Source: Pseudonocardia kunmingensis
GTDB lineage: Bacteria > Actinomycetota > Actinomycetes > Mycobacteriales > Pseudonocardiaceae
Length of the DNA: 64,000 nt
Assembly (NCBI RefSeq): GCF_006716445.1
Contig: NZ_VFPA01000001.1
Location: 930,001 to 994,000, forward strand
Direction of reading: 5' to 3'
Shown one piece after another: positions 7,267-62,408 of the stretch (positions are counted from its first letter, which is position 1; every line of letters starts with the position of its first letter). The notes below the pieces were generated by a model. That model ran no database searches and was not told the DNA's origin. It saw only the letters and a list, made by a program, of their open reading frames with translations. A program made the position numbers and the translations under genes.

Positions 7267-7323
7267 CCCTGACGAACGGCACTTTCGTCGGTTAGGTACC
7301 GACGAGGGTGCCGTTCGTCAGGG
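7267..7323. repeat. ~50-bp palindromic element, copy A (intergenic)
   Basis: Two arms of about 26 bp (outer CCCTGACGAACGGCAC, inner TCGTCGGT) around a short TAGGT centre; the arms differ only at two T/C positions that would still pair as G-U in RNA. It lies between the stop of the carboxyltransferase gene (7331) and the DUF397 start (7138) and could act as a terminator. The same element recurs at 38649, 43396 and 56999. Confidence 0.9.
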
Positions 7324-19530: not shown

Positions 19531-20577
19531 TCAGGCGTGGAACGCCGCCAACCGCTCCGCCTCCTCGGCCAGTTCCCGGCCTGCGGAGGCGGGCAGCGGG
19601 TGGAACGGTTCGCAGCGCACCGCCCCGTCGACGAGGCGCCAGGTGCCGGCCACCTGCCCGTCGACGAGGAACGTGGGCACCGACTGCGGGATGTTCCGGG
19701 CGAAGACGCGCGGGCGGTGCTCCTCGGGGAGGATCTGCGCCCGCCGCACGTGCACCAGCAGGTTGGCGTCCCACTGACCGAGGAACCGCACCGGCGCGGG
19801 CGTGTCGGCGGCCGGGAGCGGCGCGTCCGGCACGTCGACCAGCTCGGCGCCCGACTCGCCCCGGAAGCGGCGCAGCTCCATGCGGGCGAGGACGGCGCGC
19901 GCCGCCGTGACGCTCCAGCCGCAGAACGAGGCGAGGTCGCCCGCCGCGGCCGGACCGAAGGCCCGCAGGTAGCGGCCTGCGAGCAGCTCCGCGGCCACCT
20001 CGGGGTCGACCGCCTCGTGCGGCACCGTCCGTTCGGCGAGCCCGTACACGTGGGCGCGCGGAGTGCCCCACGTTCCTGCGGGCGGCACGCGCACGAGATC
20101 GAGCCACAGCTGCACGCCGGGCCAGACCTCGCGGGGGAAGCCGTCGGCGACGAGCCGCTTCTGGATCTCGGCCTGCTTGAGCGGGCCGTCGACGAGGTGG
20201 CCCCGCACCGCCGCCGCGACCGCCGTCATGTCGCACTGCGCCGGCAGCGGGCTCACCCGCCGCCACCACTCCCGGCGCGCCTCCCGCACCGCCTCCGTGA
20301 ACGGCCAGTAGTCACCCGCCGCGACCATGTGGATGGTGCAGCGCATCATCCAGGCCTGCACGATGCGCCCGTCGAGCAGCGCCTCGGTGAGCACGTCGCG
20401 CCGGAACCCGGCAAGGCGCGACCACAGGCCGACGTACCCCGAGGGGGCGTACTGCGTCTGCAGCCCCGCCACCTGCTCGACGACCCGCTCCGGCCCGGCC
20501 GTGGAGCGCTCCAGGAGCAGCTGCCTCGCCAGCAAGGCGCGGTTGAGCTCCCGGGTGGACAGCACGCGCTCGACCAT
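19531..20577 (-). CDS. Winged-helix DNA-binding protein, AlkZ/YcaQ-like (HTH_42)
   Basis: A 348-residue protein of the winged-helix family that includes the DNA glycosylases AlkZ and YcaQ, which unhook interstrand crosslinks or remove alkylated bases. A QTQ motif (AGLQTQYAPSGY, about residue 37) matches the catalytic Q-x-Q of that family. A HMVAAGDYW segment and a C-terminal LGQWDANLLVHVRR block follow. The start is set at ATG 20577, because the in-frame extension upstream is made entirely of the 22-bp repeat cluster. No toxin-biosynthesis genes are nearby, so it may be a general repair enzyme. Confidence 0.75.
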   Translation of the reverse strand: MVERVLSTRELNRALLARQLLLERSTAGPERVVEQVAGLQTQYAPSGYVGLWSRLAGFRRDVLTEALLDGRIVQAWMMRCTIHMVAAGDYWPFTEAVREARREWWRRVSPLPAQCDMTAVAAAVRGHLVDGPLKQAEIQKRLVADGFPREVWPGVQLWLDLVRVPPAGTWGTPRAHVYGLAERTVPHEAVDPEVAAELLAGRYLRAFGPAAAGDLASFCGWSVTAARAVLARMELRRFRGESGAELVDVPDAPLPAADTPAPVRFLGQWDANLLVHVRRAQILPEEHRPRVFARNIPQSVPTFLVDGQVAGTWRLVDGAVRCEPFHPLPASAGRELAEEAERLAAFHA

Positions 20578-20601
20578 GCGGCGAAGTCTGCCGCCCACCC
20601 C

Positions 20602-20689
20602 CGACACCGCGAGTCCCCCACCCCGACACGGCGAGTCCCCCATCTCGACACGGCGAGTCCCCCATCTCGACACGGCGAGTCCCGCATAT
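20602..20689. repeat. 22-bp tandem repeat, four units
   Basis: Four contiguous 22-bp units (consensus CGACACGGCGAGTCCCCCAT + 2 bases). The first and last differ slightly. The core GCGAGTCCC is the reverse complement of the core of the next cluster, 46 bases away. Confidence 0.92.
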
Positions 20690-20735
20690 CGACATTCCCT
20701 CACCCCCGCGCGAGGGGCCCCGAGGCCTCCGGCCC

Positions 20736-20930
20736 GGACGGGAGACTCGCGCTGTCCGGACGGAGACTCGCCCGGCCCGAACGGGAGACTCGCGCTGTCC
20801 CGACGGGAGACTCGCGCTGTCCGGACGGGAGACTCGCGCTGTTCGGACGGGAGACTCGCGCTGTCCCAACGGGAGACTCGCGGTGGCGGCGGGGGGCTCG
20901 CGGTGGGTGGGCGGGAGGCTCGCGGGGTCA
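20736..20930. repeat. 22-bp tandem repeat, about nine units, opposite orientation
   Basis: Nine units of 21-22 bp with core GGACGGGAGACTCGCGCTGT, degenerate in the last three. Units 1, 4, 5 and 6 are nearly identical. It runs into the stop codon of the IclR gene (20928-20930). With the cluster at 20602 it fills the gap between the IclR gene and the AlkZ-like gene and forms a large imperfect inverted repeat. Three related units lie inside cobB. Confidence 0.9.
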
Positions 20931-37530: not shown

Positions 37531-38715
37531 TCAGCGCGCGCGTGTCGCGGTGGTCTTGTCGGTGGTCTTGTCGGTGGTCTTGTCGGTGACGCCGGCCGCG
37601 TCGAACGTGGCGACGTCCTGGAGGGCCTGGGCCGCGCTCTGCAGCACCGGGAGGGCCAGGAGCGCGCCGGTGCCCTCGCCGAGGCGCATTCCGAGGTCCA
37701 GCAGCGGCTCGAGGCCGAGGTGGGCGAGGGCGCGGGCGTGGCCCGGTTCGGCCGAGCGGTGACCGGCGATCCACGACGGCACCGCGGCCGGGGCGAGCGC
37801 GGCGGCGGCGAGCGCCGCGGCGCCTGCGCTCACCCCGTCGAGCAGCACCGGGACGCGCAGCGCGGCCCCGCCGAGCGCGAACCCGGCGAGTGCCGCGTGC
37901 TCCAGCCCGCCGAAGGCGGCGAGCACGCCGAGGGGGTCGGCCGGGTCGGGCCGGTGCCGGTGCAGCGCCGCCGCGACCACGGCCGTCTTCCGGGCCAGCG
38001 TGGCGTCGTCGACGCCGGTGCCGCGGCCCGTCACCTCCTCCGCGCCCGCCCCCGTGAACGCGCTGATCAGCGCCGCGGCCGCGGTGGTGTTGGCGATGCC
38101 CATGTCGCCCGTGACGAGGCAGCGGTTGCCCGCGGCCACCAGGTCGCGCGCGGTCTGGATCCCCACCCCGACGGCGGCCTCGACCTGCTCGCGCGTGAGC
38201 GCGGGACCGGTGGCGAGGTCGGCGGTGCCGTCGGCGACGCGCCGGGGCAGGAGGCCGGGCACGGGGTCGAGCGGGGGCGCGGCCACGCCGACGTCCACCA
38301 CGCACACCTCGACTCCGAGCCGCCGCGCGAACGCGTTGACCACCGCTCCCCCGCCGAGGAAGTTGGCCACCATCTGCGCGGTGACCTCCTGCGGCCACGG
38401 CGTCACGCCCTGCGCGTGCACCCCGTGGTCACCGGCGAACACGGCCACCGCGGCGGGCTCGGGCACCGGCGGCGGGCAGGTCCCGGCGATGCCGGCGAGC
38501 GCGATGGCGAGGTCCTCCACGCGGCCGAGGGCCCCGCGCGGCTTCGTCATCCGGTCCAGCCGCTCGACGGCGGCGGCCCGGGCCGTGGCGTCCCCAGGGG
38601 TGATCGCGGCGACGGTCTCGGCGAGCAGGTCGCGCGGGAAGCAGTCCCGACGAACGGCACTTTCGTCGGCTAGGTACCGACGAGAGTGCCGTTCGTCACG
38701 GGGATCGGGGTTCAC
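37531..38715 (-). CDS. cobT: Nicotinate-nucleotide:dimethylbenzimidazole phosphoribosyltransferase
   Basis: Makes alpha-ribazole phosphate, the lower-ligand precursor of cobalamin. It has 394 residues, longer than the usual ~350-360. Visible are MTKPRGALGRVEDLA, AVFAGDHGVHAQGVTPWP and the C-terminal catalytic Glu in DLGMRLGEGTGA. The start is GTG 38715, which overlaps the cobI stop as GTGA like other pairs in this operon. This places palindrome copy B in frame at residues ~6-23 (DERHSRRYLADESAVRRD) before the conserved domain starts. No ATG, GTG or TTG start lies between. The C-terminus holds three TDKT repeats. Confidence 0.92.
   Translation of the reverse strand: MNPDPRDERHSRRYLADESAVRRDCFPRDLLAETVAAITPGDATARAAAVERLDRMTKPRGALGRVEDLAIALAGIAGTCPPPVPEPAAVAVFAGDHGVHAQGVTPWPQEVTAQMVANFLGGGAVVNAFARRLGVEVCVVDVGVAAPPLDPVPGLLPRRVADGTADLATGPALTREQVEAAVGVGIQTARDLVAAGNRCLVTGDMGIANTTAAAALISAFTGAGAEEVTGRGTGVDDATLARKTAVVAAALHRHRPDPADPLGVLAAFGGLEHAALAGFALGGAALRVPVLLDGVSAGAAALAAAALAPAAVPSWIAGHRSAEPGHARALAHLGLEPLLDLGMRLGEGTGALLALPVLQSAAQALQDVATFDAAGVTDKTTDKTTDKTTATRAR
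37549..37584. repeat. 12-bp tandem repeat at the 3' end of cobT
   Basis: Three perfect copies of GGTGGTCTTGTC, coding for the TDKT repeats near the C-terminus of CobT on the minus strand. Probably arisen by slippage. Confidence 0.9.
38649..38697. repeat. ~50-bp palindromic element, copy B (inside cobT)
   Basis: Arms of 21 bp (GACGAACGGCACTTTCGTCGG and its complement with one difference) around CTAGGTA. It is read as coding sequence in the N-terminus of CobT. Confidence 0.92.
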
Positions 38716-39446
38716 AACGCTCCGCCTCGGCCCGTGCGCTTCGGTGGGACTATCAGCGTCGCCAGGTACGGGCCCCGCTTCCGGGGATCGAGGTCCTTGG
38801 CCGGGCGGATGTCCTCCTCCGGCAGGCCCAGGCCGGCGCCGTACACGGCCTCGTCCAGGCGTCCGGTCTCCTCCAGCACGGCGAGGGTCTCGGGCAGCAT
38901 CCGGCCGAACTTGTAGGCGGCCACGGCGTCGCCGCGCTCCAGGGCCTCGCGGAACCGCTCGGGTCCGGCCGTCATCGGGAACAGGGACAGCGGCTCCCGG
39001 CCCTCCACCAGCGGTGTGCCGGAGCGGGCGGCGAGGTCCTGCATCGCCGTGATGCCCGGGACGAGCTGCACGTCCAGCTCCCCCAGCACCTCCCGCACGG
39101 AGGCGGCGAGGTAGCTGAAGGTGGAGTAGACGCACGGGTCGCCGATGGTCGCGAACACCGCGGTGCCGCCCGGGTGCGCGGCGAACCAGGCCGCCACCTG
39201 GGCGGCGGCGGCGTCCCACGCGCGCTCGCGCCGCTCGGTGTGCTCGCGGTCGTGCAGCGCGAACACCACGCGCTCCACCCGCCACGCCTCGGCGTAGTAG
39301 AGGACGGTCTGCTCGGCGCGGCCGGTCTCCCCGGAGTCGGCCACCGGGACGAACACGACGTCGGCCTTCGCGAGCAGGTTCGCGGCCCGGACGGTGACCA
39401 GCTCGGGGTCGCCGGGTCCGACGCCGACTCCGACCAGGGTGTTCAC
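38712..39446 (-). CDS. cobI: Precorrin-2 C20-methyltransferase
   Basis: Adds a methyl group from SAM at C20 of precorrin-2. It has 244 residues with the tetrapyrrole methylase fold: GVGVGPGDPELVTVRAANLL at the N-terminus, ATIGDPCVYSTFSYLA (about 92-107) and the VPGITAMQDLAARSG loop. GTG 39446 overlaps the cobN stop and the gene's own stop overlaps the cobT start, both by 4 bases. It is transcribed with cobN and cobT behind a cobalamin riboswitch. Confidence 0.93.
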   Translation of the reverse strand: MNTLVGVGVGPGDPELVTVRAANLLAKADVVFVPVADSGETGRAEQTVLYYAEAWRVERVVFALHDREHTERRERAWDAAAAQVAAWFAAHPGGTAVFATIGDPCVYSTFSYLAASVREVLGELDVQLVPGITAMQDLAARSGTPLVEGREPLSLFPMTAGPERFREALERGDAVAAYKFGRMLPETLAVLEETGRLDEAVYGAGLGLPEEDIRPAKDLDPRKRGPYLATLIVPPKRTGRGGAL

Positions 39447-42400
39447 TCCTGGCCCTCCAGGTCCCCTTCGAGGTCCAGATAGGTCTGCCGGAGCCGGTCG
39501 AGCACGGCGTCGTCGGGCTTGGCCCACATGCCGCGGTCGGCGGCCTCGAGCAGCCGCTCGGTGATCCCGCGCAGCGCCCAGGGGTTGCTCTTCTCCATGA
39601 ACGCGCGGTTGGTCTCGTCGAACACGTAGCTCTCGGCGAGCCGGCCGTACATCCAGTCGTCGACGACGCCCGCGGTGGCGTCGTAGCCGAACAGGTAGTC
39701 GACCGTGGCCGCGAGCTCGAACGCACCCTTGTAGCCGTGGCGCTGCATCGCCGCGATCCACTTCGGGTTCACGACGCGGGCGCGGAAGACCCGCTTGGTC
39801 TCCTCGGCCAGCGTCCGCGTCTTGACGGCCTGCGGCACCGCGGAGTCGCCGACGTAGGCCGCGGGCGAGCGGCCGGTGAGCGCGCGGACCATCGCGACCA
39901 TGCCGCCGTGGTACTGGAAGTAGTCGTCGGAGTCGACGATGTCGTGCTCGCGGGTGTCCTGGTTCTTCGCCGCCACCGCGATCCGGCGGAACGACTGCTC
40001 CATGTCGGCGCGCGCCTCGCGCCCGTCGAGGCCCCGGCCGTAGGCGTAGCCGCCCCAGACCGCGTAGACCTCGGCGAGGTCGGCGTCGCTGCGCCAGTTG
40101 CGGGCGTCGATCAGCGGCAGCAGGCCCGCCCCGTACGCGCCCGGCTTCGACCCGAAGATCCGCGACGTGGCGCGGCGGCGGTCGCCGTGCTCGGCCGTGT
40201 CCTCCTCGACGTGCGCGCGCAGGTAGTTCTGCTCGGCCGGCTCCTCCAGCTCCGCGACGGCCCGGATCGCGTCATCGAGCAGCGTGATGACGTGCGGGAA
40301 CGCGTCGCGGAAGAACCCCGAGATGCGCACGGTGACGTCGATGCGCGGGCGGCCCAGCTCGTCGAGCGGCACGATCGCGAACCCGGTGACCCGGCGCGAC
40401 GCGTCGTCCCAGACCGGGCGGCACCCGATGAGCGCGAGGATCTCGGCGAGGTCGTCGCCCTGGGTGCGCATGGCGCTCGTGCCCCAGACCGTGAGCCCGA
40501 CGCTGGACGGGTAGGCGCCGGTGTCGGCGAGGTGGCGGGCGACCAGCGAGTCGGCGAGCGCCGAGCCGATCTCCCACGCACTCCGCGAGGGGATCGCCTT
40601 CGGGTCGACCGAGTAGAAGTTCCGCCCGGTCGGCAGCACGTTGACCAGCCCGCGCGTCGGCGAGCCGGACGGCCCGGCCGGGACGTAGCCCCCGTCGAGG
40701 GCGTGCAGGACGGCCGTGACCTCGTCGGTGGTGCGCTCCAGGCGCGGCACGACCTCGCGGCAGCCGAAGTCGAGCACGGCCACGACGGAGGGGATCTCCT
40801 CGCCCAGCAGGTCGGCGCAGACGGCGGCGGGCTCGGCCCACCCCCGCTCCTGCAGGCGGGTGACGAGCGCCCGGGCCACGCCCTCGAGGACGTCGACGAG
40901 ATCGGCTCCGGTGACGGCAGGCCCGGGGGCGACGGCGAGGAGCCGCCCGAGCCGCGCCGGCCCAGGTTCAGGAAAGCCACTTTCATGAACCTGCAGGACA
41001 GGAAAGTGGCTTTCCTGAACTTCGGAAGCGGCCGCTCCGGGGCGCTCGCCCGGGTTCGCCAGGAGCGCCTGCTCGTCCCAGCCCGCCCACGCCGCCAGGG
41101 CCGCGCGCAGGCCGGGGAGGGCCGCCTTCCCGCCCCACACCTGGCTGGCCCGCAGGATCGAGAGCACCAGGTTCACCTGGGCCTCGTCGGCCGGCGGGCC
41201 CCCCAGGATGTGCAGGCCGTCCCGGATCTGGACGTCCTTGACCTCGCAGAGGTAGCCGTCGATGTGGAGGATGAAGTCGTCGAAGTCGTCCTCGCCGGGG
41301 GCCGCGTCGACGTGCAGGTCGTGGTGCAGCTGCGCCGCCGTCACGACCTCCCAGATCTGCGTGCGCAGGGCCGGGAGCTTCGCCGGGTCCATCGCCTGCA
41401 CCGTGGCGTACTCGTCGAGCAGCTGCTCCAGCTTGGCCATCTCGCCGTAGGTGTCGGCGCGGGCCATCGGCGGCACGAGGTGGTCGACCACCACGGCGTG
41501 CCCGCGGCGCTTGGCCTGCGTGCCCTCGCCGGGGTCGTTGACGATGAACGGGTAGACCAGCGGCAGCTCGCCGAGCACGGCGTCGGGGGCGTCCTCTGCG
41601 GCGAGGCCGAGGCCCTTGCCGGGCAGCCACTCGAGGGTGCCGTGCTTGCCCAGGTGGATCACCGCGTCGGCGCCGAAGCCCTGCTGATCTGCTGAGGCGT
41701 CCAGCCAGCGGTAGGCGGCCAGGTAGTGGTGCGAGGGCGGCAGGTCCGGGTCGTGGTAGATCGCCACCGGGTTCTCGCCGAACCCGCGCGGCGGCTGGAT
41801 CATCAGCACGACGTTGCCGAAGGTCAGCGACGCCAGGACGATCTCGTCGCCGTCCACGTAGAGCGACCCCGGCGGCTCCCCCCAGTGCTCCCGCATCCCG
41901 TCGGTGAGCGGGGACGGCAGGGCGTCGAACCAGCGCCGGTAGTCGGCCAGGCGCACGCGGGCCGGTGCCGCGGCCAGCTGCTCCTCGGTGAGCCACTCCA
42001 CGTCGTGGCCACCGGCCGCGATGAGCGAGTGGATCAGCTCGTCGGAGTCCTCGGGGAACTCGCCGACCGCGTAGCCGGCCTCCCGCAGCGCGCGCAGCAG
42101 CACGACGGCGGACGCGGGCGTGTCCAGCCCGACCGCGTTGCCCACCCGCGAGTGCTTCGTCGGGTAGCTCGACAGCACCACGGCCAGCTTCCGGTCCGCG
42201 ACCGGGGTGGCGTGCAGCCGCGCGTGCCGCACCGCGAGCCCGGCCAGCCGGGCGGCGCGCTCGGGGTCGGCGCGGTAGACGGGGATGTCGTCGCCGGGCT
42301 CGGTCTCCTTGAACGAGAACGGCACCGTGATCAGCCGGCCGTCGAACTCGGGGATCGCGACCTGCATCGCGGCGTCCATCGGGGAGAGCGCGGCGTCCGA

Positions 42401-43183
42401 CTCCGCCCACGTCGCGCGCGAGGTCGTCAGGCACAGCCCCTGCAGGACGGGCACGTCGAGGGTGGCGAGGGCGCCCGCGTCCCAGGAGTCCTCTTCACCG
42501 CCCGCGCTCGCGTCGGCGGCGACCGTGCCGCCGGCCGCGAGCACCGTGGCGACCAGCGCGTCCGCCCCGCCCAGCAGCCCCATCAGCTCCGGCTGCGCGC
42601 CCCGCAGCGAGCCGCAGAACACCGGCAGCGCGTTGGCTCCACGGGCCTCGATCGCGTCGCACAGGACGTCGACGAACGCGGTGTTGCCCGACAGCGCGTG
42701 GGCCCGGTAGAAGACCACGCCGACGGTCGGGCGCGCCGGGTCCTGCACCCGCGAGCCGTGCACCCCGAACTCCGGCGTCGCGGCGGGCGGGTCGAAGCCC
42801 TCGCCCGTGAGCAGCACGGTGTCGGACAGGAACCGGTGCAGCTCCCGCAGGTTCGCGGTGCCGCCGGCCGCCAGGTAGGCCAGCGCCTCCGACGCGACGC
42901 CCGCGGGCACCGTGGACGCGGCCATCAGCTCGGCGTCCGGCGCGGACTCCCCGCCCAGCAGCACGACCGGCAGGCCGGACGCCACCAGCGCGTCGACCCC
43001 CTCCGGCCACGCCCGGCGCCCGCCCAGCAGCCGCAGCACCACGACGGCCACGCCGTCGAGCAACGGAGGCAGCCCGTCGGGCTCGACGCGGGCCGGGTTG
43101 GCGGTGCGGTAGAGCGCCCCGGAGCTGCGGGCGGCCAGCAGCTCGGTGTCGGCGGTGGAGAGCAGCAGGACGGGCTGCGTCAT
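39443..43183 (-). CDS. cobN: Aerobic cobaltochelatase large subunit
   Basis: The large ATP-dependent subunit that inserts cobalt into hydrogenobyrinate a,c-diamide; it works with ChlI/ChlD-like CobS/CobT partners, which are not in the window. It has 1246 residues. Family blocks include SSYPTKHSRVGNAVGLDTPAS (written here in two parts: SSYPTKHSRVGNAV and GLDTPAS), IHLGKHGTLEWLPGKGLGL, VYPFIVNDPGEGTQAKRRGH and RIFGSKPGAYGAGLL. ATG 43183 follows GGGAGGAACACCG. A palindromic insert codes for VQESHFPVLQVHESGFPEP near residues 722-740, between two conserved parts. Confidence 0.95.
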   Translation of the reverse strand: MTQPVLLLSTADTELLAARSSGALYRTANPARVEPDGLPPLLDGVAVVVLRLLGGRRAWPEGVDALVASGLPVVLLGGESAPDAELMAASTVPAGVASEALAYLAAGGTANLRELHRFLSDTVLLTGEGFDPPAATPEFGVHGSRVQDPARPTVGVVFYRAHALSGNTAFVDVLCDAIEARGANALPVFCGSLRGAQPELMGLLGGADALVATVLAAGGTVAADASAGGEEDSWDAGALATLDVPVLQGLCLTTSRATWAESDAALSPMDAAMQVAIPEFDGRLITVPFSFKETEPGDDIPVYRADPERAARLAGLAVRHARLHATPVADRKLAVVLSSYPTKHSRVGNAVGLDTPASAVVLLRALREAGYAVGEFPEDSDELIHSLIAAGGHDVEWLTEEQLAAAPARVRLADYRRWFDALPSPLTDGMREHWGEPPGSLYVDGDEIVLASLTFGNVVLMIQPPRGFGENPVAIYHDPDLPPSHHYLAAYRWLDASADQQGFGADAVIHLGKHGTLEWLPGKGLGLAAEDAPDAVLGELPLVYPFIVNDPGEGTQAKRRGHAVVVDHLVPPMARADTYGEMAKLEQLLDEYATVQAMDPAKLPALRTQIWEVVTAAQLHHDLHVDAAPGEDDFDDFILHIDGYLCEVKDVQIRDGLHILGGPPADEAQVNLVLSILRASQVWGGKAALPGLRAALAAWAGWDEQALLANPGERPGAAASEVQESHFPVLQVHESGFPEPGPARLGRLLAVAPGPAVTGADLVDVLEGVARALVTRLQERGWAEPAAVCADLLGEEIPSVVAVLDFGCREVVPRLERTTDEVTAVLHALDGGYVPAGPSGSPTRGLVNVLPTGRNFYSVDPKAIPSRSAWEIGSALADSLVARHLADTGAYPSSVGLTVWGTSAMRTQGDDLAEILALIGCRPVWDDASRRVTGFAIVPLDELGRPRIDVTVRISGFFRDAFPHVITLLDDAIRAVAELEEPAEQNYLRAHVEEDTAEHGDRRRATSRIFGSKPGAYGAGLLPLIDARNWRSDADLAEVYAVWGGYAYGRGLDGREARADMEQSFRRIAVAAKNQDTREHDIVDSDDYFQYHGGMVAMVRALTGRSPAAYVGDSAVPQAVKTRTLAEETKRVFRARVVNPKWIAAMQRHGYKGAFELAATVDYLFGYDATAGVVDDWMYGRLAESYVFDETNRAFMEKSNPWALRGITERLLEAADRGMWAKPDDAVLDRLRQTYLDLEGDLEGQE
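40966..41020. repeat. Palindrome inside cobN
   Basis: A perfect 19-bp inverted repeat (GTTCAGGAAAGCCACTTTC, 40966-40984; complement at 41002-41020) with a 17-base centre that is itself similar (ATGAACCTGCAGGACAG). It is unrelated to the other palindromic element. It is read in frame in CobN, giving two similar peptides, VQESHFP and VHESGFP. Confidence 0.92.
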
Positions 43184-43224
43184 CGGTGTTCCTCCCGAGG
43201 GTCCGCGCCCTCTGCTCGGTGGAG

Positions 43225-43335
43225 TCGTGACGGCAGCGAGTGTCTGGCTCCCGGGGTCGCCCCCGGTGACAGTGGCGGGACCGCGCCGGACTCGCACCGG
43301 CTTCCTGCACTGCCGTCGCGAGCACTGCAACACAC
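43225..43335 (-). ncRNA. Cobalamin riboswitch upstream of cobN
   Basis: On the minus strand, GCCGGTGCGAGTCCGGC is followed by GCGGTCCCGCCACTGT and then the B12-box region GGGAGCCAGACACTCG, the conserved core of the cobalamin aptamer. It ends about 40 bases before the cobN start, so adenosylcobalamin probably represses the cobN-cobI-cobT transcript. Confidence 0.9.
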
Positions 43336-43395: not shown

Positions 43396-43448
43396 CCGAC
43401 GAACGGCACTCTCGTCGGCTAGGTACCGACGAGAGTGCCGTTCGTCGG
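43396..43448. repeat. ~50-bp palindromic element, copy C (intergenic)
   Basis: The best-preserved copy: two perfectly complementary 23-bp arms around CTAGGTA. It lies between the stop of the cyclodeaminase gene (43463) and the cobN riboswitch, where it may end transcription of the former. Confidence 0.95.
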
Positions 43449-55812: not shown

Positions 55813-57068
55813 GGACGGGTCCCCCACAGGATGGTGATCGGGTTGGTGGCCGCGAGCCGGACGCTCCCGTCGGGCAGGTCGGCGAACCGGGACGCCGCGA
55901 GCTGCACCCCGTCCACCGCGAGCCCTGCGGCGTGCAGCGCGGCGCGGGTGGGCGCGATCCGGTCCAGGGCCGCGAGCGCCACGACGACGCGGTCGGCGCC
56001 GGTGGCGGCCGCGACCACCTCCGGGCCGCCGCCACCGACGAACACCGCGTCCGGGTGCGGCAGGCCGGCGAGCGCGGCGGGCGCCTCCCCCTCGACCACC
56101 CGGACGTCGACGCCGTGCGCGGCGGCGTTGGCGGCGATCCGGGCGGCGTCGTCGGCCCGCCGCTCGACGGCGAGCGCGGCGGCCCCCAGGCGGGCGCACT
56201 CGACCGCGACCGACCCGGAGCCCGCGCCCACGTCCCAGACGAGCGTGCCGGGGCGCGGCGCGAGCCGGGCCAGCACCAGCGCCCTGACCTCGGCCTTCGT
56301 GACCATCCCGGCGCGGTGGTCGAACGCGTCGTCGGGCAGGGCCCATCCGCGGCCGGGCGGGACGGGCTCGCCACCCGCGTGCCAGCCGCGGCCGGGCACG
56401 GCGTCGGGGTCGCGCAGGCACAGCACGACCGTGAGCGGGTGCCAGTCGCGCGCGGCCGCCTCGGCGGCGGGCAGCGTGGTGAGCCGCTCGTCCGGCCCGC
56501 CGAGGTCCTCGGCCACGACGAGGGTGCGGGGCCAGCCGTCCAGGGCGGCACCGATCTCGGCCGGCCCGGCGCCCGGCGCGGTGAGCACGGCGACGGCCGG
56601 TCGCGCGCGGCAGACGTTGACGGCCGGGCCGAGGGCGCGCCCGTGCGCGCTGACGACGGCGACGTCGTCCCACGAGCGGCCGAGCCGGGCGAACAGGAGC
56701 TGGACGCTGGAGCGCGCCGGCAGCACGACGGGCTCGTACCCGCGCTCGCGCAGCAGCCGCACGATGCCGAAGAAGCCGGGGTCGCCACTGGCCAGCACGA
56801 CGCCGCGGCGCCCGGCCAGCCGTTCCAGGGCGGGCTCGACCGGCCCCAGCTCCACGCGCGAGGCGGACGGCGGCACGGGCACGGAGCGGAGGTGACGAGC
56901 GCCCCCGAGCACGACCTCGGCGGCGGCGAGCGCGTCATCGGCACCCGGCGGCAGGCCACCGCCATCGATCCCGATCACGGTGACGCGAGCCCCCTGCGGC
57001 AACGAACGGCACTCTCGTCGGTACCTAGCCGACGAAAGTGCCGTTCGTTGCTCGGGGGTGCGGGTCAC
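55809..57068 (-). CDS. cobL: Precorrin-6Y C5,15-methyltransferase, decarboxylating
   Basis: A bifunctional enzyme: an N-terminal CbiE-like C5-methyltransferase (ASGDPGFFGIVRLLRERGYE) and a C-terminal CbiT-like C15-methyltransferase with decarboxylation (FDHRAGMVTKAEVRALVL, VWDVGAGSGSVAVECARLG). It has 419 residues from GTG 57068, which overlaps the cobM stop as GTGA, as throughout this operon. Then residues ~6-23 are coded by palindrome copy D. The conserved domain begins at VIGIDGGGL; GTG 56978 there is the alternative start (389 residues), but its ribosome site is weak. Confidence 0.9.
   Translation of the reverse strand: MTRTPEQRTALSSARYRRECRSLPQGARVTVIGIDGGGLPPGADDALAAAEVVLGGARHLRSVPVPPSASRVELGPVEPALERLAGRRGVVLASGDPGFFGIVRLLRERGYEPVVLPARSSVQLLFARLGRSWDDVAVVSAHGRALGPAVNVCRARPAVAVLTAPGAGPAEIGAALDGWPRTLVVAEDLGGPDERLTTLPAAEAAARDWHPLTVVLCLRDPDAVPGRGWHAGGEPVPPGRGWALPDDAFDHRAGMVTKAEVRALVLARLAPRPGTLVWDVGAGSGSVAVECARLGAAALAVERRADDAARIAANAAAHGVDVRVVEGEAPAALAGLPHPDAVFVGGGGPEVVAAATGADRVVVALAALDRIAPTRAALHAAGLAVDGVQLAASRFADLPDGSVRLAATNPITILWGTRP
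56999..57051. repeat. ~50-bp palindromic element, copy D (5' end of cobL)
   Basis: Arms of about 24 bp (GCAACGAACGGCACTCTCGTCGG region, given in part) around TACCTAG, with one internal mismatch; the centre is inverted relative to copies A-C as read on the plus strand. It lies between the cobM/cobL overlap and the first conserved codon of cobL. Confidence 0.92.
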
Positions 57069-60974: not shown

Positions 60975-62408
60975 TCAGGGACGCGCCGCGGCCGCGGCGG
61001 CAGCGGCGAACCGCGCGACCGCCTCCGGGTGTCCCGCGGGGTGCGTGTGCAGGAACGACGCGTGCACGCCGCCTGCGACGAAGCCCTCCGGGCCCGCCCC
61101 GCGCCACCCCCACGCCGCGGTCGCGCCGGCACGGGGGGTGACCGACCAGTGGTGGAACTCGTGCCCGGCCACCCGCGTGCCCTGCGGGAACAGCGGGGAG
61201 TCACCGAGTGCGACGGCGTCGCGGTAGCCCAGCGTGAGCCGCCCGGCGCGGGTCGCCGCCGCCGGCAGCACCCCCGCCATCGGCGCGCCGTCGAGGGTCG
61301 CGCACAGGTACAGCAGCCCGCCGCACTCGGCGTGCACGGGTGCTCCGGACGCCGCCAGCTCGCGCACCGCGGCGAGCAGCGGCGTGTTCGCGGCGAGCTC
61401 CGCGACGTGCTCCTCGGGGAAGCCGCCGGGCAGCACGAGCGCCGCCGTACCGGGCGGGAGGCCCTCGTCGCGCAGCGGGTCGACGGTCACCGGCTGCGCC
61501 CCCGCCGCGGCTAGCAGCTCGACGTGCTCGGCGTAGCCGAACGTGAACGCGGCCCCACCGAGCACGGCGACGACCGGCCCCACCCCGGCGAGTCCCCCGT
61601 TCCGCCCCGGCGAGTCTCCCGTTCGGACAGGGTGAGTCGCGCGTCCGGACCGTCCCACGGCGTCCGCGGGCGTCCACGCCGGTACCGCCGGCAGCGGCGC
61701 TGCCAGCGCGACCACGGCGTCCAGATCGACGTGCGCGGCCACCAGATCGGCCATCGCGTCGACGGCGCCGGTCGCCGCGGCGCCGTGCTCCGCCGCGGTG
61801 ACGAGCCCGAGGTGCCGGGACGGGACCGCCAGCGCGTCACGGCGCGGGAGGGCCCCCAGCACCGGGAGCCCTGCCTCGTCGGCCGCGGCGCGCAGCGCGT
61901 CCTCGTGCCGCTCGCTCCCGACCCGGTTGAGCACGACACCGGCGATCCGCAGGCCAGGGTCGAACGAGCGGAACCCGTGCAGCAGCGCGGCCAGGCTGCG
62001 CGACATCCCCCTGCAGTCGACGACCAGCACGACCGGCGCCCCGAGCAGGGACGCGACCTGCGCGGTGGACCCGGCCCCGGCCGTGCCGACGCTCGCTGCG
62101 CCTGCGCTCCGCTCGGGCACCCGGCCGTCGAACAGCCCCATCACGCCCTCGACGACGGCCACCTCGGCACCCGCGGACCCGTGCCGGGCCAGCGGGCCGA
62201 TCCGGTCGGCGCCGACGAGCACCGGGTCGAGGTTGCGCCCCGGCCGACCCGCGGCGAGCGCGTGGTAGCCGGGGTCGATGTAGTCCGGCCCGACCTTGAA
62301 CGGCGCCACGGCCGTGCCCCGGCGGCGCAACGCGGCCATCAACCCGGTCGCGACGGTCGTCTTGCCGCTGCCCGAGGCGGGCGCGGCCACCACCAGGGCG
62401 CGGGTCAC
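60975..62408 (-). CDS. cobB: Hydrogenobyrinic acid a,c-diamide synthase
   Basis: An ATP- and glutamine-dependent amidase of 477 residues. An N-terminal dethiobiotin-synthetase-like ATPase (P-loop APASGSGKTTVATGLMAAL; FKVGPDYIDPGYH) is joined to a C-terminal class-I glutamine amidotransferase (PGGFPEEH; nucleophile Cys in HAECGGLLYL; catalytic His near HASFLHTHPAGHPEA). The linker (about 252-276) is coded by three units of the 22-bp repeat (THPVRTGDSPGRNGGLAG). A second unusual segment, VPERSAGAASVGTAG, lies near residue 96. It stands apart from the other cob genes. Confidence 0.94.
   Translation of the reverse strand: MTRALVVAAPASGSGKTTVATGLMAALRRRGTAVAPFKVGPDYIDPGYHALAAGRPGRNLDPVLVGADRIGPLARHGSAGAEVAVVEGVMGLFDGRVPERSAGAASVGTAGAGSTAQVASLLGAPVVLVVDCRGMSRSLAALLHGFRSFDPGLRIAGVVLNRVGSERHEDALRAAADEAGLPVLGALPRRDALAVPSRHLGLVTAAEHGAAATGAVDAMADLVAAHVDLDAVVALAAPLPAVPAWTPADAVGRSGRATHPVRTGDSPGRNGGLAGVGPVVAVLGGAAFTFGYAEHVELLAAAGAQPVTVDPLRDEGLPPGTAALVLPGGFPEEHVAELAANTPLLAAVRELAASGAPVHAECGGLLYLCATLDGAPMAGVLPAAATRAGRLTLGYRDAVALGDSPLFPQGTRVAGHEFHHWSVTPRAGATAAWGWRGAGPEGFVAGGVHASFLHTHPAGHPEAVARFAAAAAAAARP
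61583..61648. repeat. Three 22-bp repeat units inside cobB
   Basis: Units at 61583-61604, 61605-61626 and 61627-61648 (core CCCCGGCGAGTCTCCCGTTC) belong to the family of the 20.6-20.9 kb clusters. Total 66 bp, a multiple of three, so the frame is kept although each single unit shifts it. Confidence 0.88.

Follow-up and report, generated by a model that had tools for sequence, protein, structure and literature searches.

The cobT gene of Pseudonocardia kunmingensis begins with a palindromic repeat of a family, F1, whose copies lie mostly between genes. The reading that we favor, with a probability of about 0.68, is that an F1 repeat behind cobI became the N-terminus of a bluB-cobT fusion gene, and was then joined to CobT by deletion of BluB. 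The window, the whole stretch of DNA that was analyzed, comprises 64,000 nt (contig 1, bases 930001-994000); the genome, labeled G000 in comparisons with other genomes, measures 9.14 Mb.

Position and reading frame of the cobT palindrome

The cobN, cobI and cobT genes run on the minus strand of the window, with the following features at and around the palindrome.

37531-38715, minus strand: cobT, 394 codons plus stop
37588-38604, minus strand: CobT catalytic domain, Pfam DBI_PRT, residues 38-376, E 1.9e-125
38635-38640, minus strand: proposed scar of a BluB deletion, TTC/CCG, residues 26/27, from comparison with G010, G033, G081 and G021 (exact joint presumed)
38649-38697, minus strand: palindrome of family F1, 49 nt, codons 7-22 of cobT plus the first base of codon 23, DERHSRRYLADESAVR
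38713-38715, minus strand: cobT GTG start codon, with GGAG four bases upstream
38712-38714, minus strand: cobI stop codon TGA, overlapping the cobT GTG as GTGA, 14 nt from the palindrome
38712-39446, minus strand: cobI, upstream of the palindrome
39443-43333, minus strand: cobN ORF, conserved part from about 43183
40965-41023, minus strand: palindrome GGAAAGTGGCTTTCC, of a family other than F1 (F2), read in frame within a linker of cobN

The near-perfect palindromic core of the cobT copy, GACGAACGG...CCGTTCGTC, spans 49 nt, a length that is not divisible by three; the check proposed in the initial annotation of this DNA concerns the length of the insertion. The predicted RNA fold of positions 38640-38720 (minus strand) has an energy of -44.5 kcal/mol (z -6.94), which was equaled by none of 200 shuffles. 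The translated start of cobT reads VNPDPR-DERHSRRYLADESAVRR-DCFPRDLLAE, in which the palindrome itself contributes DERHSRRYLADESAVR(R), and the stretch that can be aligned with other CobT proteins begins 11 nt further on. The initial annotation was correct that the palindrome is in frame near the cobT start, but the core begins after codon 6 (GTG counted) instead of five codons on, so that 18 nt, GTG included, separate the start from it. The overlap of the cobT GTG with the cobI stop was borne out by the GTGA at 38712-38715, and cobN/cobI, the sole further pair of the operon checked, overlaps likewise. It also proved true that no ATG, GTG or TTG lies between the palindrome and the CobT domain, since the only in-frame standard start codons up to residue 60 are GTG 1 and ATG 56, the latter inside a domain that begins at residue 38; CTG codons occur at residues 30 and 53. 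If CobT uses a standard start ahead of its domain, this absence means that the repeat is translated, and we infer that translation of the palindromic segment starts at the GTG.

The F1 repeat family and its usual location

The window contains four F1 copies, namely that in cobT and three others.

7271-7319, plus strand: F1 copy
43398-43446, plus strand: F1 copy upstream of cobN, matched by one at the corresponding position in G010
57001-57049, minus strand: F1 copy; the loop of the corresponding copy in G010 is inverted, and G033 has one arm only

A search of the window for the F1 arm pattern at up to three mismatches gave 10 matches, eight of them arms of these four copies, where 0.43 were expected and none of 100 shuffles had as many. 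The genome as a whole has 210 F1 matches at up to three mismatches, compared with 0 for a backwards control pattern. Among 80 genomes searched, F1 was found in six (G000 included), all of the same genus, with 27, 12, 9, 4 and 3 matches in the other five; other species have their own variants, for example GGCGCGTTCGTCGG...CCGACGAACGCGCC, in which both arms are altered together. When 25 F1 copies chosen from those genomes were analyzed for pairing, 94.8% of pair cells were standard pairs, and 14 cells were changed on both sides compared with 6.0 in shuffles, a value reached in 1 of 500. Because these both-side changes sit in just three of 20 pairs (a number attained in 345 of 500 shuffles), and because the copies are related, the sequences lend moderate support to the view that the F1 palindrome has been kept.

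The F1 stem is about 20 bp long and ends in GACG/CGTC, which are paired, and with conserved flanks the long form of the repeat reaches about 75 nt. Requiring 8 of 10 positions, the left flank is conserved in 58 and the right flank in 43 of 98 distinct G000 copies, while 32 of the 98, the cobT copy among them, have neither.

The location of F1 was analyzed mainly in 1.234 Mb of contiguous G000 sequence, 87.7% of which was called coding by a home-made gene caller. This sample contains 36 F1 sites at up to 11 mismatches and 34 at up to nine; 25 of the 34 lie between tandem, seven between convergent and two between divergent genes, with none inside called genes. The intergenic gaps of at least 60 nt in the same sequence (298 tandem, 173 divergent, 61 convergent) predict about 11 divergent copies among 34, as opposed to the two observed. 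The median distance is 14 nt to a flanking stop codon (n=39) and 94 nt to a start codon (n=29). At 14 nt from the cobI stop, the cobT copy matches the median of the family and occupies the usual F1 spot behind a stop codon. It was counted as extragenic, as one of the 25 tandem copies, because the caller set the CobT start behind the palindrome, and it is coding because cobI and the next gene overlap.

The 98 G000 copies whose flanks were compared, which were taken from the low-mismatch part of the match list and are thus biased to well-kept copies, comprised 44 convergent, 41 tandem and eight divergent copies, plus three at an edge and two inside an ORF (cobT not counted), whereas ORFs contained 310 of 400 random control positions drawn from these stretches. 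Convergent copies are fewer in the contiguous stretch (seven of 34) than in this low-mismatch set (44 of 98). ORF calling took the place of an earlier frame-score test of the flanks, which had scored 71 of the 98 copies as non-coding on both sides and just one as an in-frame part of a gene. A further F1 copy is found in frame, in another phase, at position 1490 of a separate locus (G000:C1:1718500-1721500), with an acyltransferase domain on one side of it and a part that looks hydrophobic on the other.

The initial annotation had proposed a mobile-element origin for the cobT segment. The sequence is indeed that of a dispersed repeat read in frame, but the family is overwhelmingly extragenic behind stops, and neither a Y1 transposase in G000 nor a clean empty site was found. 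No match to PF01797, the sole transposase family searched, is present in G000, and among G000 and seven relatives the family was matched in G021 only, so a REP driven by a RAYT was dropped as an explanation. The Y1-type transposase gene of G021 (G021:C1:7636072-7636425) is the only one among the eight genomes. Single arms flanking a transposase were likewise dropped, as the 1.234 Mb contain 10 unpaired F1 arms compared with six arms in a Markov control. No clean empty site was obtained for the copy at 57001, where no insertion boundary can be read because G033 retains one arm. A 74-nt F1 consensus had no blastn match among plasmids and phages, in a search from which records very near G000 may be left out, and spread on such replicons was dropped; so was a known RNA family, as Rfam gave no match for positions 38400-39000 up to E 1.

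Other repeats accompany F1 in this genome. Across bases 1-1234000 of contig 1 (loci L217-L256 and L258-L276 plus the window), 83 strong hairpins were found compared with three in a Markov control, a scan that superseded one with a stricter threshold (43 sites); they include several families besides F1, one of which (CACACCGACTGCAGTCGGTGTG) was seen by eye about 16 times. The window also contains 22-nt tandem repeats of the GGCGAGTCCCCC type at 20577-20721 and of the opposite-sense GGGAGACTCGCGCTG type at 20719-20907, and a related sequence at 61578-61656.

CobT and BluB in related species

CobT-like matches were found in all 62 genomes of the genus that were searched, a few of them only distant or broken. 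Among named loci, those most similar in CobT belong to Pseudonocardia, and one of these, from Pseudonocardia sulfidoxydans (L062), agrees in junction sequence and in identity with the locus of G022 (L040), a genome of this genus. The best matches mostly begin at query residue 25-32; those of G047 and G008 begin at residues 9 and 5, and in neither upstream stretch was the G000 palindrome present in frame. In the nearest relatives the CobT frame runs upstream into BluB, forming a BluB-CobT fusion. A BluB/CobT2 fusion enzyme is known from Propionibacterium freudenreichii, and BluB/CobT has been described as rather widespread among Actinobacteria (PMC4657239).

The gene order cobN-cobI-bluB-cobT is common to G010, G033, G081 and G021, and the G010 BluB is matched at 91-94% in the other three. 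With this query no close BluB was found in G000: the best-scoring match there covers 201 residues at 35% (E 1.4e-8), G010 itself containing one like it at 34%, and the other match covers 47 residues at 57%. In a CobT tree of 33 rows, G000 is placed next to G010 (96/93), and both belong to a clade of five (100/98) in which the remaining members, like G010, are fused; the unfused CobTs elsewhere in the tree are that of G014 and six that form a distant group (100/100). Since four of the five clade members are fused, parsimony suggests that G000, alone in this clade, lost the BluB half. Several other Pseudonocardia loci (L307-L310, L313, L314 and L319) have a CobT without BluB behind cobI, with start codons of their own.

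These relationships bear on the alignment with orthologues that the initial annotation had recommended. Most orthologues lack the palindrome, as such a comparison would have it, but the CobT of the nearest relatives is a BluB fusion, and the test is not a simple one because the BluB to which these CobTs are fused was lost in G000.

The junction behind cobI across species

The junction behind cobI was readable in 31 cases, comprising G000, 21 of the 29 loci L032-L060 (the other eight are without cobI in the locus) and nine further ones. Judged by eye, with folds for those among L032-L060, and leaving out weaker inverted repeats such as that of G023, a clear palindrome is present at nine of the 31. 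In five of these nine (G000, G010, G021, G033 and G081) an uninterrupted frame extends to the domain from a start codon that lies at the cobI stop or shortly ahead of it, and a start codon also lies within the repeat of G033 and G081 (ATG) and of G010 and G021 (GTG). In the other four (G034, G038, G047 and G006) a GTG behind the palindrome serves as the start. With the ATG of G033 and G081 also considered, a palindrome left wholly or partly untranslated is common at the cobI joint.

The four starts behind the palindrome raise the alternative that the palindrome of G000 is a purely extragenic REP, with CobT starting behind it at CTG 30 or another non-standard codon, in keeping with the view that many N-terminal REPs are not coding (PMC3733652). 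We regard this as unlikely: the four species that start behind the palindrome have a GTG right before the domain, whereas G000 reads CCG CGC at the matching place, with no start; it is without ATG, GTG or TTG before residue 56; and no Shine-Dalgarno-like run stands directly ahead of CTG 30 (GACTGCTTCCCGCGCGAC).

Sequences of the F1 family also lie before BluB in G033 and G081, in the same frame as in G000 (SDERR...), at 12 and 18 nt, respectively, from the first base of the GTG; the palindrome of G033 is reduced, and that of G081 has extra sequence nested between its arms. This location suggests that the palindrome is probably older than the present N-terminus of CobT. A direct jump of the element into the beginning of CobT, as the initial annotation would have it, is a natural reading of an in-frame repeat missing from most orthologues, but it now seems very unlikely, given that CobT had no N-terminus of its own in the clade of five, being fused to BluB, that F1-family sequence occupies the same place before BluB in G033 and G081, and that the position fits the F1 distance from the cobI stop.

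The end of the putative deletion can be approximated by comparing G000 with its fused relatives. Behind the palindrome, GTTCGTCGGGACTGCTTC of G000 resembles GTTCGTCGGAACGCCTTC of G081 up to the first BluB codon, after which G000 continues with the CobT part, and the ATG that heads this part in the four fused relatives (CCGATGGAC) corresponds to CCGCGCGAC in G000. The loss of BluB would thus amount to an in-frame deletion of about 630 bp, whose exact ends are deduced from this comparison.

The palindromes that other species have at the joint count against the favored reading. Those of G010, the CobT sister of G000, and of G021 belong to another family, F3 (GTGAGTGG...CCACTC), and the ends of cobI in these two genomes are likewise unlike those in G000, G033 and G081. 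The occurrence of F1 at the joint, and with it the whole stretch, therefore conflicts with the CobT tree; there may have been separate insertions or exchange at the joint, and the mixed distribution of F1 and F3 makes exchange or repeated insertion likely somewhere.

State of the cobT gene

The dN/dS ratio of the CobT part is 0.16-0.24 between G000 and five relatives, slightly above the 0.13-0.20 of G010 against the other four relatives. In an AlphaFold model (19 sequences) the CobT domain is mostly well predicted (mean 80.8, pTM 0.85), and residues 1-26 and 379-394 have pLDDT below 50. A disordered leader is consistent with a tail that is tolerated and offers no proof of its translation, and the 26 leading residues of CobT are probably disordered ballast, presumably without function. 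At the other end of the protein (37549-37587), TDKT is encoded by a 12-nt unit repeated three times, which in G010 and others aligned occurs once or not at all.

We give little credence to the proposal that cobT is a decaying, unexpressed remnant left after the loss of BluB. The genome retains no close BluB, it has a CobT paralogue at C2:276576 (45%) and dN/dS is slightly raised, as a remnant might lead one to expect; set against this are an intact frame of 394 codons, dN/dS values of 0.16-0.24, the full-length Pfam match, and the presence of such a paralogue in the four nearest fused relatives too. Palindromes are hard to sequence and G000 has a contamination value of 6.83%, but an assembly error at the palindrome as the source of the BluB deletion is scarcely credible when one palindrome is left, with no two whole copies to collapse between, and an assembly of 10 contigs has no close BluB elsewhere.

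Proposed history of the CobT N-terminus

The favored reading, in which F1 reached CobT by way of the fusion gene, can be set out as a series of putative steps. The REP-like F1 would settle, or survive, at a distance of about 14 nt past stop codons. Downstream of cobI this spot would fall within the first codons of the next gene, then bluB-cobT, because cobI and bluB-cobT overlap. A palindrome that is in phase and free of stops could be read as a loose N-terminal tail, while other species would use instead a start codon that follows the palindrome. In the G000 lineage the BluB half would then have been deleted in frame, joining palindrome and CobT in a gene whose start codon would be the GTG overlapping the stop of cobI. 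We infer this order of events, palindrome first and BluB deletion later, from the comparison of species.

In-frame palindromes in GlcE and CobN

Palindromes are also found in frame within other proteins, such as a GlcE-like FAD oxidoreductase.

G000:C1:1415845-1417176 (L277): GlcE-like FAD oxidoreductase with two in-frame F1 copies; relatives' loci L278-L306

GlcE matches occur in all 62 genomes of the genus, and among the best 30 loci, which were compared (those of G024 and G082 are alike), 12 F1 matches at up to 13 mismatches were found in nine of 30 genomes, all in phase 0 and in the same orientation. All of them lie in one linker, and the rest of the gene is free of them. Two are present in each of G000, G081 and G010 (in G010 the second is very worn), and G034 and G017 show weak traces of F1 in the alignment, below threshold. 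The GlcE copies may stem from one or two old insertions, so their shared phase does not amount to 12 independent events. In the CobN linker, F1 is present in G033 and G081, half an F1 in G021 and the unrelated F2 in G000 and G010, all in frame.

The CobN linker and the cobI joint thus contain different palindrome families in different species. A bolder proposal is that these two places and the GlcE linker are repeatedly occupied by palindromes through active swapping or re-insertion at marked places, becoming protein segments, and that the palindrome helped to delete BluB; we consider this possible but doubtful. A more immediate value of these genes is that filled, half-filled and empty versions of one linker can be compared across a series of species in both GlcE and CobN.

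Comparison with known repeats and fusion enzymes

The fused enzyme type of the relatives of G000 is like BluB/CobT2 of P. freudenreichii (PMC4657239); G000 is unlike it in that the BluB half is missing and CobT opens with a palindrome.

The F1 family resembles the REPs of the GTAG and CGTC super-families, which are short, many-copy palindromes located mostly between tandem or convergent genes, close behind stops, with few between divergent genes and some within genes (PMC3733652). F1 likewise has many near-identical, mostly extragenic copies that lie behind stops and are rare between divergent genes. It differs in its stem of about 20 bp, compared with 8-9 bp in CGTC families, and in having no unpaired GTAG or CGTC tag, as its GACG/CGTC ends are paired (PMC3733652). 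CGTC families have no dedicated transposase (PMC3733652); GTAG REPs with a RAYT are unlike F1 in G000, which is without a PF01797 Y1 transposase. The words Actinobacteria and Streptomyces are absent from the main text of that study, which mentions untagged REP-like families for M. tuberculosis, an actinobacterium (PMC3733652). No description of such repeats in Pseudonocardia or Actinobacteria was recognised in a literature search conducted mostly outside subscription journals, and F1 is a new REP/RPE-like family by comparison with the GTAG and CGTC REPs and with the elements of Rickettsia.

The initial annotation had likened the cobT segment to Rickettsia palindromic elements (RPEs), two of which, RPE-4 and RPE-6, are CGTC repeats (PMC3733652). 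The analogy holds insofar as F1 is a palindrome read in frame within unrelated proteins, giving a similar peptide each time (PMC10969869), as found in GlcE (nine of 30 genomes), in CobN and in the CobT leader. It is incomplete in that RPEs are about 150 bp long with nearly half of them in genes (PMC10969869), whereas the F1 core measures 49 nt (about 75 nt once flanks are included) and almost every sampled copy is extragenic, with two of 98 in ORFs. As judged from the sequences, in-frame F1 palindromes inside proteins are real, yet rare among all copies. The cobI joint suggests a simple route from extragenic to coding repeat, in which the next gene starts inside the landing zone, and with F1 the range of bacteria that have palindromic repeats in frame extends to a high-GC actinobacterium.
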